From positions 1 to 49,904 of the IMG/VR virus record IMGVR_UViG_3300046674_000267: a stretch of DNA of 49,904 nucleotides. One strand, given 5' to 3'. Of the stretch, positions 8,860-43,950 are shown in pieces; the stretch's first letter is position 1; each line of letters starts with the position of its first letter. The notes below the pieces were generated by a model. That model did not search any database. It worked only from the letters and a program-made list of their open reading frames with translations, and was not told the DNA's origin. The DNA comes from a virus. The position numbers were made by a program, and so were the translations under genes.

Positions 8860-10409
8860 TGCCGATTTATCAAGCGAACAGTTTGAACGTTTCGGCGCTC
8901 TCCGCTCCCGGCGTTTATCTGCAAATCCAGACGCCGCCGCTGCTTATCAACGGCGTCCCGTCGAACGTGCTCGGCGCGGTCGGTATCGGCTCATGGGGTC
9001 CGGTGAATGCTCCGGTGCTCGTCGGCTCGCCGAATGACGTCGCGCAATGGCTCGGCGCAAAGCAAGTGCGGAAATACGACCTCGCAACCGCGATGGACGT
9101 GTTTTTCCTGCAAGGCGCGACCGCGATCCAGTACGTGCGCGTCACGGACGGCACCGACGTCGCGGCAACCGGCAAGCTGATGGACACCAACGGCACGCCC
9201 GCAATCGGCGCCAACCTGACGGCGATCTACACCGGCACGCGCGGCAACTCGATCGTCGCATCGATGGCGGCTGGCACGAAGGCGAGCACGTTCAAGGTGA
9301 CGATTTCGCTGCCGGGCGTACAGGCGGAAGTGTTCGACAACATCGCCGGCTCGGGCGCTGCGCTGTGGACGAACGTCGTGAGCGCGATCAACAACGGGCA
9401 GTCGAACGTTCGCGGCCCGTCGCAACTCGTGATCGCAACAGCCGGCCCGGCAACCGCCGCACCGAACATCACGACGCCGAACACCTTCGCGACCGGTACG
9501 GACGGCACGACGACCATCACCGATGCGGTTCTCGTCGGCACTGACGGCAACGCCGGCACGCGCAAGGGCATGTACTGCCTTCGCAGCACCGCTGTGCAAG
9601 TTGGCGTCCTGGTCGATCACTCTGACCTTAGCGCCGCGTCGACCGTGCTCGCGTTTGGCTTGTCCGAAGGCATCTATTTCGGCATGCAGGGCGCGCCTAG
9701 CGCGAATTACACGACGGTCTCGACCGCACTCAACACGGCCGGCGCTGATGGTTACGGCCTGAAAGTGTTCGTCGGCGATTGGGTGACGTACTTCGACGGC
9801 ACGAACAACCAGAACCGTTTGCTCGGACCCGCTACGTTTTGGGCGGGCAAGCAAGCATCGCTCTCGCCGGAACAGTCGAGCCTGAACAAGCCGCTCTACG
9901 GCATCGTCAGCACGCAGCGCATCGCGCAAACCCTGCCGTACACGAGCGCGGAAATCGGCGCGATCAATCAAGCGCGTCTCGACGTGATCGCCAACCCGTC
10001 GCCGGGCGGCAACTTCTACGCGTGCCAAACGGGCGGCAACGCTTCGAGCGCGGCGGGTCAGGATGGCGACAACTACACCCGCATGACGAATTACCTGTCG
10101 CTCACCCTGGCGGCGGCGTTCGGCACGGTGATCGGCAAGAACCAGACGGTCGACCTTCGCAATGACGTGAAATCGGCGATGCAAGCGTTCCTCGCGAACC
10201 TTTGGCGCCTGAACATGATCGGCGACGTCAACAACCCGACCGTCGCGCCGTTCACGGTTCAAATCGACAAGGTGAACAACCCCGATTCAGCGGTCGCGGC
10301 CGGGTACATGCAAGCCGACGTCAAGGTGAAATACCTGTCGGTCGTGCTGTACTTCGTGATCAACCTGCAAGGCGGTCAGACGGTTCAAATCCAGTCGAGC
10401 GTTCAGTAA
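8859..10409 (+). CDS. Contractile tail sheath protein
   Basis: The 516-residue protein starts with APGVY (about residue 17) and a GPVNAPVLVGSPNDVAQWLG segment, the hallmark N-terminal handshake region of sheath proteins, and ends with a conserved C-terminal domain (DVKVKYLSVVLYFVINLQGG). The middle is a Thr/Ala/Gly-rich variable domain. It establishes the phage as myovirus-type. AAGGAGG upstream is a near-perfect ribosome site. Confidence 0.95.
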   Translation: MPIYQANSLNVSALSAPGVYLQIQTPPLLINGVPSNVLGAVGIGSWGPVNAPVLVGSPNDVAQWLGAKQVRKYDLATAMDVFFLQGATAIQYVRVTDGTDVAATGKLMDTNGTPAIGANLTAIYTGTRGNSIVASMAAGTKASTFKVTISLPGVQAEVFDNIAGSGAALWTNVVSAINNGQSNVRGPSQLVIATAGPATAAPNITTPNTFATGTDGTTTITDAVLVGTDGNAGTRKGMYCLRSTAVQVGVLVDHSDLSAASTVLAFGLSEGIYFGMQGAPSANYTTVSTALNTAGADGYGLKVFVGDWVTYFDGTNNQNRLLGPATFWAGKQASLSPEQSSLNKPLYGIVSTQRIAQTLPYTSAEIGAINQARLDVIANPSPGGNFYACQTGGNASSAAGQDGDNYTRMTNYLSLTLAAAFGTVIGKNQTVDLRNDVKSAMQAFLANLWRLNMIGDVNNPTVAPFTVQIDKVNNPDSAVAAGYMQADVKVKYLSVVLYFVINLQGGQTVQIQSSVQ

Positions 10410-26891: not shown

Positions 26892-27542
26892 ATGACCATC
26901 ATCGCAGTCGTGATGCAGAAGGGCGGGGTAGGCAAGACTACGGTCGCAACCAATGTCGCCGGTACGCTCGCCATGCAGGGCGGCGCCGTGCGCCTGTACG
27001 ATGCCAACCCGTATCAAAGCAGCGCGTACCAATGGGGGCAAGTGCGCCTCGATGCAGGCGTGCCGCAGAACCTGAGCGTCGTGCGCGCCGAGCGTAATTA
27101 CGGGCACGCGGTCATTGCAGACGCGCCGAATTTTGATCACATCGTCATCGACTGCCCGCCGAGCCTCGGCACTGAAAGCGAAGTCGCTGCGGCGGTCGCT
27201 GAAATCATCCTGATCCCGCTTGCGATCGGGCAATTCGACGCATGGAGTCTCGCGCAGACGGGGCAACTGATTCGCAGACGGAAAGCGCTGCCGACGCCAG
27301 TGCGCGTGATCGCGTTTGTGAACTCCGTTCCACATTACATCAAAGCGGAACTTGAGGAATCGATTGATCTGATCAAAGATATGAGCGAAGAATTCGAGTT
27401 AGGGCCAACCCTTATCGATCGCGCCGCATATCGAAGGGCGGCAAAACTCGGGCTTTCGGTGATGGAATTGCCGCCTGACTATCGCGATGGCAAGGCGATC
27501 GACGAATTCTGCACACTGATGGCGGGGGTGTTCAATGGCTAA
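26892..27542 (+). CDS. parA: ParA-family partition ATPase (short, type Ib-like)
   Basis: The 216-residue product has a deviant Walker A KGGVGKTT (residues 10-17, with signature Lys10 and catalytic Lys15), a Walker A' region (LYDANPYQS) and Walker B HIVIDCPPS. It lacks the N-terminal HTH domain of type Ia ParA. GGGAGAG precedes ATG 26892. It should move plasmid copies over the nucleoid using the DNA-binding partner encoded next, with which it overlaps by 8 bp. Its presence implies the prophage is a segregating plasmid. Confidence 0.9.
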   Translation: MTIIAVVMQKGGVGKTTVATNVAGTLAMQGGAVRLYDANPYQSSAYQWGQVRLDAGVPQNLSVVRAERNYGHAVIADAPNFDHIVIDCPPSLGTESEVAAAVAEIILIPLAIGQFDAWSLAQTGQLIRRRKALPTPVRVIAFVNSVPHYIKAELEESIDLIKDMSEEFELGPTLIDRAAYRRAAKLGLSVMELPPDYRDGKAIDEFCTLMAGVFNG

Positions 27543-28793: not shown

Positions 28794-29282
28794 TTATGCC
28801 GCCGTTTGTTCGCGCGCGAGCGCCAGCAGTCGCGGATCGGCCTTCGTCATCACGTCGAGCAGCAGGCGCTTTTCTTCGAGATACGTCACCGCGAATTTCG
28901 GATCGTGCTTCACGATGCTCGATGTGTTGCTGATCAGGTCGGCGCACTTGATCGTTTGAATCCATGCCGGCGCCGCCGCAAGCCGCGCGCGCGCCGCTGC
29001 CTTGCGCTCGGCTCGGTTGCCCGTTTCAAGGTCGGAAAGTTTCAGCACGCCCGCGGCAACGATTTCGCCAAACTCCCGAAAAAGCACTTCGGTCGATACG
29101 CCCTGATCCTCGATGCAGTCGTGAAGCCATGCGACGGCGATCGCGATTTCGCTGATCAATACCGTTGTCGCGATGCCGGCGACTTCGCCCAGGTGATCAG
29201 CGTAGGGGTTGCCGGTGTACTTGCGAACCTGCGTCTTGTGCGCTTCGCGCGCGAAAACCATTGCTTTGAATGCGATGCTCAT
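28794..29282 (-). CDS. HD-domain hydrolase, MESH1/SpoT-like
   Basis: The 162-residue product has the (p)ppGpp-hydrolase HD layout: [20 protein letters not shown] (His15, His30), AWLHDCIED (His54-Asp55, Glu58-Asp59), and KCADLISN (Asp near 114). It has no synthetase domain, like animal MESH1 and small bacterial hydrolases. It would lower alarmone or another nucleotide. It overlaps the DfrB-like gene by 4 bp, so the two are co-translated. Confidence 0.82.
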
Positions 29283-29470
29283 GTTGCCTCCGGTTGCAGT
29301 TCAAGCGCCGACTCCGGGTAAATCTGAACGCTGCCGTGCTCGGTCGAACTCTCGACCGCATAGCCGATCGGCGTGAGGTTCGTCGAGTAGAAGCCGACAA
29401 CGCGGCCATGCCATTGCGAGCCGCGCGTCTTGCGCACCAAGTCGCCGAGTTTGAATTTGTCGCCTGTCAT
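29279..29470 (-). CDS. R67-type (DfrB-like) dihydrofolate reductase
   Basis: The 63-residue protein aligns without gaps to the SH3-like core of type II plasmid DHFR. Using an offset of 18, it keeps Lys32 (here K14), Trp38 (W20), Ser65 (S47), Gln67 (Q49), Ile68 (I50) and Tyr69 (Y51), including the TNLTPxGYAVES and GSVQIYP blocks. Four such chains make one active pore in R67. The family confers trimethoprim resistance on plasmids; here it may support thymidylate synthesis during phage replication. The shorter, different N-terminus is the disordered part in R67. Activity is inferred. AGGAG is 5 bases upstream. Confidence 0.88.
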
Positions 29471-30246
29471 GCTTTCTCCTGTTGATTAATGAATGTGGTT
29501 AGGTTGGTCTTGGTCGGCCAAGGCAATGAGCCATGCACCCGCTTCAGCGCTTCGCTCGATGATTCGCAAATGAACAGATTTTCGGGGCGATCGTCCGCTT
29601 TATTGTTGTTGATGCGCAGCACGACCTCACATCGCTTCAGGTCACGCCCAATCGCCGCGCCCGCCACGAGCCGATGACTTCCGACATACTTGCCAACATA
29701 GCCGGGGCGCTCGTGCCTCTCGAATTTGTGCCCGGCTGAATCGGAGACATATTCCCCGCCCTTCCAATTTGGGCTGCGCGACTCACGGTAAAAAGCGGTT
29801 GAGCATTCTTGTGAGCAGCACGGCTTTTCGCTGCGCTGCCTTTGAGTCGACAGGTTGAGATAGAACATGCGCCCGCAGCAGGTGCAAGCCATCTCTTCGC
29901 CGCGCTTCAATCCTTCAGCGGCGCAGTTTTTGGAGCAGTATTTTTGATGCTCGTCCGCGTGCCCGGATTTTTTCGCCAGGAATACCGACCCGCAGGATTG
30001 GCACTCTCGATGCTCGGGACGGATGCACTCGCCCAGGAAGCATTCGCGCGAACAGAATTTCGGCCATACGCCATGATCTTGCGACGCGACAAAAGCGGCA
30101 TCGCAATGTTCACATTTCAGTTCGCGGCGCTCGACTTTCTTGTGCTCGATTCGGCAGGCGTTCGAGCAAAAGCAGGAAGCCTTCGCGCGCGAAGGCGATA
30201 CCCGATATAGCTTGTCGCAATGTGTGCAGGTCTTTGAGACTGGCAT
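29467..30246 (-). CDS. HNH-type protein with four N-terminal zinc ribbons
   Basis: The 259-residue product begins with four successive Cys4 units (CTHC...CSNAC, CEHC...CSREC, CQSC...CSKNC, CTCC...CSQEC), then NWKGG and an HNH_3-like core ([20 protein letters not shown], then [13 protein letters not shown]). Canonical members have HHIN where this has LRIN, so a catalytic His may be lost. It sits within the leftward operon. Homing endonuclease, or a binding protein derived from one. Confidence 0.75.
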
Positions 30247-31072: not shown

Positions 31073-31765
31073 TCATACCAGTTCGAATTGCTCAAAGGTA
31101 GTATTTGCGGGCAAATTTTTTCGAAGATGCGGGGCGTTTGCGAGGTAGACCGCTTTCGCAAAACCGCGCGGCGTCGCGCTTCGAAAGTTCGCGCGCTCCG
31201 GGCCGGGTGCCGCCTTGTGAATGCGGTCATCCGGCTTGCCGAGCGTCGCATCGCGCGCCGGCTCCGGCATGACGAAGCCGCCACCAACGCGCAGGCAGGT
31301 CAGTTTCGTGTAGTTGTCGTCCGCGCAATGCGCCGTGTAGTCGCTCGGGTGGAACGTGTGATCGGGCTTGCCGAAAACGCCCGACAGCACGCTCACCGGG
31401 TTTTCCCAAAACCAAGGCGCGCCCGATAGCTCGCCGATCGTGCGGCACTGCTCCGCGACCGCTGCGGCCTTCGCCTGAAACATCGGGTCGGCCTTGCGCT
31501 TTGTCTCGAACCATCGCGCCCCGCTCACCGCGACGTCGGTGCATGGCGGGAAGCCGGCGACGAATACAACGTTCTCGCTGCGGATTATTTGAGACAGTCG
31601 CGGCATCGCGTCGACGATCGTTCCAGCAATGCGCTCTACAAGCCCGTCCGCGCCGCTGGCGCTGTGCTGCGGGTCGACCATGACGACGCGGTATCCGCCC
31701 TCGATCCAGTGTTCCGCCATATTCAGCGTAAGGTTGCACAGCAGAATCACGGTTCCTTTGCTCAC
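31073..31765 (-). CDS. Cytosine-C5 methyltransferase-like protein
   Basis: GTG 31765 has AAGGAGAG 7 bases upstream; 230 residues. It has FVAGFPPCTDVAVSGARWF (motif IV, catalytic Cys), WFWENPVSVLSG (motif VI, Glu), and an N-terminal CNLTLNMAEHWIEGGYRVVM in place of the usual motif I. It is short and lacks a clear target-recognition domain. It may modify phage DNA against restriction, or modify a nucleotide base in another way. No partner endonuclease is seen. Confidence 0.68.
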   Translation of the reverse strand: MSKGTVILLCNLTLNMAEHWIEGGYRVVMVDPQHSASGADGLVERIAGTIVDAMPRLSQIIRSENVVFVAGFPPCTDVAVSGARWFETKRKADPMFQAKAAAVAEQCRTIGELSGAPWFWENPVSVLSGVFGKPDHTFHPSDYTAHCADDNYTKLTCLRVGGGFVMPEPARDATLGKPDDRIHKAAPGPERANFRSATPRGFAKAVYLANAPHLRKNLPANTTFEQFELV

Positions 31766-31790
31766 GTCGCACTCTCCTTTTCCATCCCGC

Positions 31791-31823
31791 AATACTACCT
31801 GAAAATCTCTCTAAGGTAGTATT
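31791..31823. promoter_or_regulatory. Inverted repeat AATACTACC/GGTAGTATT
   Basis: Nine-bp perfect arms separated by 15 bp lie in the gap between the HTH gene and the methyltransferase gene. The left arm read leftward supplies a TAGTAT -10, but the -35 is poor, so this may be an activator- or repressor-controlled promoter for the methyltransferase gene. Confidence 0.5.
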
Positions 31824-34762: not shown

Positions 34763-35079
34763 GACGCGCCCCAAATCGCTTTGTTGAGCGCTGCGTGTGC
34801 CGCCAATGCGCGCTCGTCAGTGCGCGAAACGGCGATCGATCCGCCGTATTCGCTGATCAGGGCTTGAAGTGCGGCGAGCAGGTCGGGCGCGGCAGCGATC
34901 AGGCGGGCGTTTGCGCGCGTTTCTTCTGCGTCGCGCTCGTGCACGCCCTCATAAATCGGCGTCAGCACATTCGCAACCTTGTAGCGCCCGCCGAGCCGCG
35001 TGCCGCGAATTCGCACGTATGGCTTATGGCATTCTTCCGGCAACGTCGTCCACGGCCCCGGCGTATGTTTCGCGCTCAT
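34759..35079 (-). CDS. Conserved phage protein, HTPGPW family
   Basis: The 106-residue product has the widespread phage signature HTPGPW at the N-terminus and ETRANARLIAAAPDLLAALQ in the centre. The family is common in early regions but has no known function. Overlaps dUTPase by 4 bp. Confidence 0.8.
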   Translation of the reverse strand: MSAKHTPGPWTTLPEECHKPYVRIRGTRLGGRYKVANVLTPIYEGVHERDAEETRANARLIAAAPDLLAALQALISEYGGSIAVSRTDERALAAHAALNKAIWGAS

Positions 35080-35510
35080 TGTCCGGTGCTCCCAAAGCCG
35101 CCCGCGCCGCGCGCGGTGTCGCTGAGTTCGTCGACTTCCTCGATCTGAACGACCGGCAGCGCGACGATCATTGCTTGCGCGATGCGCTCGCCGTGCCCGA
35201 CGTCAAGATTCCCGTATGTGTCGGCCGTCAGCTTCACCATTACTTCGCCGCGGTAATCGCTGTCGATCACGCCGACGCAATTTGAGAGTCGGACATCGTG
35301 CTTGAATCCGTGTCCGCTGCGGCTGTAGACCAACATCACATGACCGGGCGGGATTTCGAACGACAATCCGGTGCTGAACACTGCGGACACGTTCGCAACG
35401 TCGCACACATATCCCGGCTCAATCGCATGCAGGTCGAAGCACGCCGCGCCATCGGTCGCGAACTTCGGGATAATTGCGCGCCCGTCGAGGCGCTTGATTT
35501 TGAGTTTCAT
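35076..35510 (-). CDS. dut: dUTP diphosphatase
   Basis: All five trimeric dUTPase motifs are present in 144 residues: DGAACFDLHA, YSRSGHGFKH, GVIDSDYRGEVMV, GERIAQAMI and the C-terminal RGAGGFGSTG. It hydrolyses dUTP to dUMP, keeping uracil out of phage DNA and feeding thymidylate synthesis. Confidence 0.95.
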   Translation of the reverse strand: MKLKIKRLDGRAIIPKFATDGAACFDLHAIEPGYVCDVANVSAVFSTGLSFEIPPGHVMLVYSRSGHGFKHDVRLSNCVGVIDSDYRGEVMVKLTADTYGNLDVGHGERIAQAMIVALPVVQIEEVDELSDTARGAGGFGSTGQ

Positions 35511-43765: not shown

Positions 43766-43798
43766 CGCAACAGCCGGTGAGATTCCGGCTGGCTCATA

Positions 43799-43871
43799 CA
43801 TGACGTACCCAAACGGCTAAGGGAGCGGTCCGCAAAACCGCTTGCTACTGGTTCGAATCCAGTCGTCATGT
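43799..43871 (+). tRNA. tRNA-Cys (GCA)
   Basis: A full cloverleaf folds in 73 nt: acceptor CATGACG/CGTCATG (7 bp), U8-A9, D arm CCC...GGG with GG in the loop, anticodon stem GCGGT/ACCGC, loop CCGCAAA, T arm ACTGG-TTCGAAT-CCAGT. The anticodon is GCA at 43832-43834 and base 73 is U, the identity base for CysRS. Position 33 is C instead of the near-universal U. CCA is not encoded. Confidence 0.85.
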
Positions 43872-43950
43872 ATGAGAGTCAAGCGCAGTGCGGCGGAAGG
43901 TGCGCCGTGTTGCGTCGGGTTGCGAGCACGCGGCCGCTCTCGCCAATGAG

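Follow-up and report, generated by a model that had tools for sequence, protein, structure and literature searches.

A conserved R67-type dihydrofolate reductase homolog in phages and its probable use as a shuffled accessory module

The dfrB-like gene and its locus

The window analyzed here is the whole of a viral record of 49,904 nucleotides (IMG/VR record IMGVR_UViG_3300046674_000267). An ATG-initiated open reading frame of 63 codons spans exactly positions 29279-29470 on the minus strand, and its translation, together with PDB, Pfam, AlphaFold2 and Foldseek comparisons, identified it as a dfrB-like gene for an R67-type (DHFR_2) SH3-like protomer. The first-pass annotation had given these coordinates exactly but was silent on the strand; a plus-strand reading of the interval yields a different, meaningless peptide and was rejected. 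R67 dihydrofolate reductase (DHFR) chains in the PDB matched residues 4-56 (E 2e-17), and the Pfam DHFR_2 model (PF06442) scored 76.1 bits against a cut-off of 25, which confirmed the assignment to the R67/DfrB type by an alignment without gaps. The NCBIfam model trim_DfrB (NF000331) scored 83.3 bits, under its cut-off of 137, and thus the window protein should be considered as a homolog rather than a named dfrB resistance allele. PHROG 31682, a family of unassigned function, matched at 81 bits.

All six pore residues listed by the annotation were found in the protein (R67 numbering is the window residue plus 18): K14 (K32), W20 (W38), S47 (S65), Q49 (Q67), I50 (I68) and Y51 (Y69). V48 (V66) was also kept, and W20 corresponds to the tryptophan of the dimer-dimer interface in R67. 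The codon of K14, equivalent to the ligand-binding lysine of R67, lies at 29429-29431, and those of residues 46-51 (GSVQIY, R67 G64-Y69), which form the pore floor and ceiling and are conserved in viral cores, lie at 29318-29335, both on the minus strand. Compared with R67 and DfrB1-DfrB21 (PF06442), the window protein shares the ungapped core, K32, W38, S65, VQIY and the SH3-like fold, whereas it lacks the disordered N-terminal tail of these 78-residue proteins, has Phe27 in place of W45, is only 60-62% identical to DfrB1, DfrB2, DfrB4 and DfrB10, falls below the NCBIfam cut-off and lies outside an integron context. W45 could be replaced without significant loss (PMC9835603).

A single-chain AlphaFold2 model based on an alignment of 71 relatives had a pLDDT of 91.1 and a pTM of 0.77. 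All seven Foldseek matches in the PDB at E < 0.001 were R67 DHFR, including 1vie and 2rk1, and the SH3-like barrel of the model superposed on 2rk1 (R67 with NADP and dihydrofolate) at 1.0 Å, with TM-scores of 0.87/0.94. As the model covers one chain, we infer the D2 homotetramer with its central pore. Two metagenomic relatives were 95-96% identical to the window protein, so the conservation of this reading frame exceeds chance by far. Over a core of 162 bp, the nearest relative (L080) differed by six synonymous and one amino-acid-changing substitutions (pS 0.155, pN 0.008), showing strong purifying selection between the window gene and its close relatives. The window gene is thus confirmed as a real, conserved phage protein of the R67 type.

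The dfrB-like gene sits in a leftward gene run, and a Shine-Dalgarno-like AGGAG, read directly from the sequence, lies upstream at 29476-29480 (minus strand). Downstream, on the same strand, is a gene for an HD_4/RelA-SpoT-hydrolase-like protein of 162 residues (28794-29282; Pfam HD_4, 2.9e-11; phrog_990, 1.7e-34), whose ATG overlaps the dfrB-like stop as ATGA; this translationally coupled protein may act in the phage as a hydrolase of nucleotides or alarmones. Upstream, an HNH-endonuclease-like gene of 259 codons (29467-30246, minus strand; phrog_1271, 6.6e-11) overlaps the dfrB-like ATG with its own stop, again as ATGA. It has no counterpart in L080, although the sequence on either side aligns, and is a possible mobile or homing insertion. 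The same gene run contains a phage DNA methyltransferase-like gene 1.6 kb upstream (31073-31792, minus strand; phrog_757, 3.9e-66; no Pfam match), and a dUTPase gene is located at 35076-35510 on the minus strand (TIGR00576, 1.6e-37; PF00692). One tRNA-Cys (gca) gene was observed at 43798-43872.

Terminase, portal, capsid and tail genes are present in the window, as are genes for NinB, an Erf-like recombinase, SSB, a repressor-like protein and, on the plus strand at 26892-27542, a ParA-like partition protein (phrog_164, 6.3e-36; AAA_31). A search for a tyrosine integrase found none in the window, which may be an incomplete record. The structural genes and ParA, together with the absence of a tyrosine integrase, make a phage-plasmid plausible, which the annotation had stated as fact.

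Pore conservation and spread of the unit in viruses and bacteria

Five scans of viral contigs revealed 281 loci, which fall into 152 species-like groups; one of the scans by itself confirmed 268 relatives, and nine further species-like groups were obtained from a phage database. A single scan that covered 84,980 species of bacteria and archaea recovered 49 loci; since the scans differ in number and pattern, these counts should be read as orders of magnitude and not as rates. Among 20 bacterial loci with phage-like cores, 14 had one or more additional genes with viral homologs within 6 kb, which suggests prophages. The corresponding figures were 1 of 22 for loci of the Burkholderiales type (KKSGAAW) and 1 of 7 for those of the Rhizobiales/Sphingomonadales type. 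The latter include short DfrB homologs (GDYAAKKGRASWRGKIVGWYRTD; L069, L070, L073, L076, L077 and L078) that had neither phage genes nor common neighbors around them, and the Burkholderiales chromosomal dfrB genes shared no neighbor of clear function. A Polynucleobacter contig (L035) carries two DfrB copies on opposite strands 8 kb apart (2146-2310 and 10001-10162).

K32, W38, V66, Q67, Y69 and P70 did not vary in any of 165 unique viral cores, and S65 and I68 were 98% conserved, whereas position W45 was variable (Thr 48%, Phe 23%, Trp 13%). The pore columns (K32, S65, V66, Q67, I68 and Y69) had a summed entropy of 0.32 bits in these cores, compared with a per-column median of 1.27 bits in the remaining columns, and random sets of six columns were equally conserved in 0.06% of draws. 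It should be noted that these figures may be biased because several search patterns include VQIY; in a scan with VQIY-free patterns, SVQIY was present in 77 of 80 loci and K32 in all 80. Thus, the catalytic pore is essentially invariant across the viral cores. The intact pore and the contrast between 152 viral groups and the 49 loci found among 84,980 bacterial species point to phages as a large natural reservoir of DfrB. DfrB is among the smallest drug-resistance enzymes, and its phage carriers, including the cultured Sinorhizobium phage phiM9, offer natural systems for testing its role.

The occurrence of DfrB in phages is not new and had already been reported (PMC9835603; PMC12466917). DfrB-H3 from a Pseudomonas phage and DfrB-H4 from a Vibrio phage were published in 2023 with DNA methyltransferases nearby and their native function left unknown: DfrB-H4 gave trimethoprim resistance in Escherichia coli, although lysates showed no measurable DHFR activity, and DfrB-H3 gave no resistance and was poorly expressed (PMC9835603). 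In the same study, DfrB-H5 proved to be a DHFR that forms tetramers and has kinetics like those of R67. Eight dfrB candidates were counted in lytic phages in 2025 (PMC12466917). Judged by host and neighborhood, DfrB-H3 is probably the PS-1 copy (L028) and DfrB-H4 the 1.030.O copy (L026). Both resemble the window gene in being phage-encoded, in K32, W38 and VQIY and in the nearby DNA methyltransferase, but they are fused to extra domains, whereas the window copy is the bare unit. GenBank genes labeled 'R67 dihydrofolate reductase' in Ochrobactrum phage ZX86, Caudoviricetes ctOsX528 and Rhizobium phages represent the same unit, 54-75% identical to the window protein and without an integron, but in different phage groups, with different neighbors and in several cases fused. 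What our data add to PMC9835603 and PMC12466917, in a literature search that covered a minority of the subscription papers, is the breadth of the phage family, the conservation of its pore and the shuffling of the unit as a module.

Probable function and alternative roles

On the basis of current results, we consider it probable that the protein is an NADPH-dependent folate/pterin reductase of the R67 type, that it is tetrameric and that phages use it as a shuffled accessory module. The window gene would encode an SH3-like protomer, four copies of which would assemble into an R67-type homotetramer around one central pore, with K14 (K32) and V48-Q49-I50-Y51 (VQIY) as its lining. NADPH and dihydrofolate, or a related dihydropterin, would bind in this pore end to end, and hydride would pass between them. 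The unit of ∼55 residues, alone or fused to unrelated phage proteins, would serve as an accessory module that probably maintains reduced folate or pterin during infection, independent of the host FolA. The match to R67, the fold, the pore columns, the selection on the gene and the tested homologs DfrB-H5 and DfrB-H4 make this reading reasonably likely. The gene, its fold, the pore conservation, the purifying selection, the operon position and the wide spread of the unit in phages are observations of this analysis; the tetramer, its catalysis, its substrate and the benefit to the phage we infer. A FolA-type DHFR occurred in none of 50 DfrB-containing records or contigs longer than 36 kb (a count with no matched background rate for comparison), so no other gene there duplicates the function of DfrB. 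On the other hand, DfrB-H3 gave no resistance, and gene searches of the whole window found no ThyA, ThyX, FolA or QueD-type gene, so that a need for an additional DHFR is not evident.

The architecture of the family also bears on this question. The ∼55-residue unit is joined to roughly 60 unrelated partners in viruses: among 161 species-level viral loci, the unit stands bare in 62 and is preceded by more than 60 residues in 77, although starts taken from the longest open reading frame may exaggerate some of these extensions. Grouping of the extensions gave one set of 49 and about 60 small sets. In 100 fused proteins, Pfam recognized a Lar restriction-alleviation domain in three and DUF551 in one, and PHROGs recognized Lar in four and three pyrophosphatase families in one protein each. 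That about half of the phages have the unit fused to large and variable partners is odd for a simple metabolic enzyme. A relative (L081) was 94% identical in DNA to the window across 155 bp only; the sequences flanking this stretch on either side were unrelated and the N-terminal part differed, and with such a sharp boundary the segment looks like a unit exchanged as a module. The fusions and the sharp boundary would fit a unit that is an oligomerization or small-ligand-sensing SH3-like module spliced into accessory proteins, with folate reduction as a latent side activity useful only since the introduction of trimethoprim, and the emergence of catalysis from a non-catalytic fold has been proposed (PMC9835603). 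However, the residues that contact NADPH and folate in R67, including K32 and Q67, are invariant in both stand-alone and fused versions, which is more than a role in oligomerization alone would demand. Thus, we regard this alternative as unlikely, though it deserves serious consideration, and retain the folate/pterin reductase as the preferred reading.

A different substrate was suggested by a subset of the phages. In about 28 species-level phages, DfrB lies within a few kb of FolE, QueD, QueE and/or a recurrent gene that looks like a transglycosylase. DfrB adjoins QueD, in several cases with FolE and QueE near, in L095, L109, L115, L132, L133, L330, L338, L340, L347 and L348, and in nine of these (all except L095) the end of QueD and the start of dfrB share 4 bp. 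The position of DfrB varies inside the cluster, and elsewhere it follows FolE or the transglycosylase-like gene. FolE, QueD and QueE, whose identities in the DfrB clusters were checked, are preQ0 genes of phage DNA modification (PMC6884629), a study in which dihydrofolate reductase is not mentioned; no report of an association between DfrB and 7-deazaguanine genes was found in our literature search, which covered a minority of the subscription papers. The native substrate might therefore be a pterin of the preQ0 pathway instead of dihydrofolate, which DfrB would re-reduce, or DfrB would supply tetrahydropterin for QueD/QueE. As a general role, this partnership looked strong from adjacency but was weakened by the finding that none of 78 other nearest viral QueD loci contained DfrB, which implies that the pathway runs without it and that DfrB is an optional extra in one group. 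QueD/PTPS was also absent from the window and from 40 of the 50 DfrB-containing records (present in 10), the association is limited to one DfrB group, and the putative transglycosylase (DpdA-like) was read by eye and had no match in four libraries. Taken together, a preQ0-pathway substrate appears improbable.

Finally, the suggestion of the annotation that the gene serves thymidylate supply jointly with the phage dUTPase is very improbable, as the dUTPase gene is real and only 5.6 kb away but nothing ties it to dfrB, the window has neither ThyA nor ThyX, and in the 50 DfrB-containing records ThyA was confined to eight (all > 65 kb; none of the 35 smaller ones) and ThyX to one. A control set of NinB phages, with few contigs > 65 kb, had ThyA in none of 33; the two sets were matched solely for contigs < 65 kb, where ThyA was absent from both. 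Host ThyA could be the partner of phage DfrB.

Relationship with integron dfrB genes

The reverse possibility, that the phage captured a recently acquired antibiotic-resistance gene from an integron, must also be weighed. The window protein belongs to the same family as integron DfrB, and an approximately unbiased (AU) test did not reject their grouping (p 0.375). However, the identity to DfrB1/2/4/10 noted above is low, the nearest relatives, at 95-96%, are from other phages, and the window locus had no plasmid match. The gene has a GC content of 0.60 and a GC3 of 0.75, the same as neighboring phage genes, which bears out the phage codon use claimed in the annotation. The annotation had also seen no integron cassette features: a simple scan of both strands found no attC-like core-site pair within 400 bp of the gene and flagged five of six integron controls, and the ATGA overlaps on both sides leave no room for such a site. 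A recent capture from an integron is therefore hardly credible.

Trees were based on 56 columns and 113-206 rows, and most forks were left open because of the small number of columns. The window gene fell with phages and outside the cluster of integron and Burkholderiales genes, but the AU result given above does not reject the integron grouping; a placement of a Pseudomonas plasmid copy inside the integron set was likewise not rejected. Trees were thus set aside as the means of deciding the origin. DfrB1-4, DfrB10 and a DfrB9-like plasmid copy clustered shallowly with Burkholderiales chromosomal genes and one phage copy (L168; aLRT 94), which agrees with the proposal that Burkholderiales chromosomal dfrB is the environmental source of integron dfrB (PMC11662351). 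These chromosomal genes are of the same family as the window gene but form a tight KKSGAAW cluster, mostly without phage neighbors, outside which the window gene lies. The phage copy in this cluster (L168:9971-10180) was 80% identical to integron DfrB1/2/4, has the KKSGAAW and VAALE motifs, and is surrounded by genes for a RecE-like exonuclease, helicases and a serine integrase. The idea raised by the annotation that the window copy points to the source of integron dfrB is not supported, because the integron set clusters with the Burkholderiales genes and L168 in a largely open tree. It is possible, though our confidence in this is low, that the DfrB fold has its main natural home in phages, where it would act as an NADPH-dependent folate/pterin reductase that is shuffled as a module, and that integron DfrB is a shallow branch of the phage pool that was taken up more than once, via Burkholderiales chromosomes and, in a separate event, as a cassette in antisense orientation within class 1 integrons of Pseudomonas.

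This cassette contains a phage-like DfrB in antisense orientation beside aadA1 (L159:3986-4189 and L160:3980-4200). The Pseudomonas copy shared 62-64% identity with DfrB1/2/4 and 78% with phage copies, a pattern that suggests a separate DfrB capture. A 221-bp query matched six Pseudomonas plasmids with 100% identity over 92-100% of its length; of the six, three had no annotated gene at this position, one was from urine and one from bird faeces.
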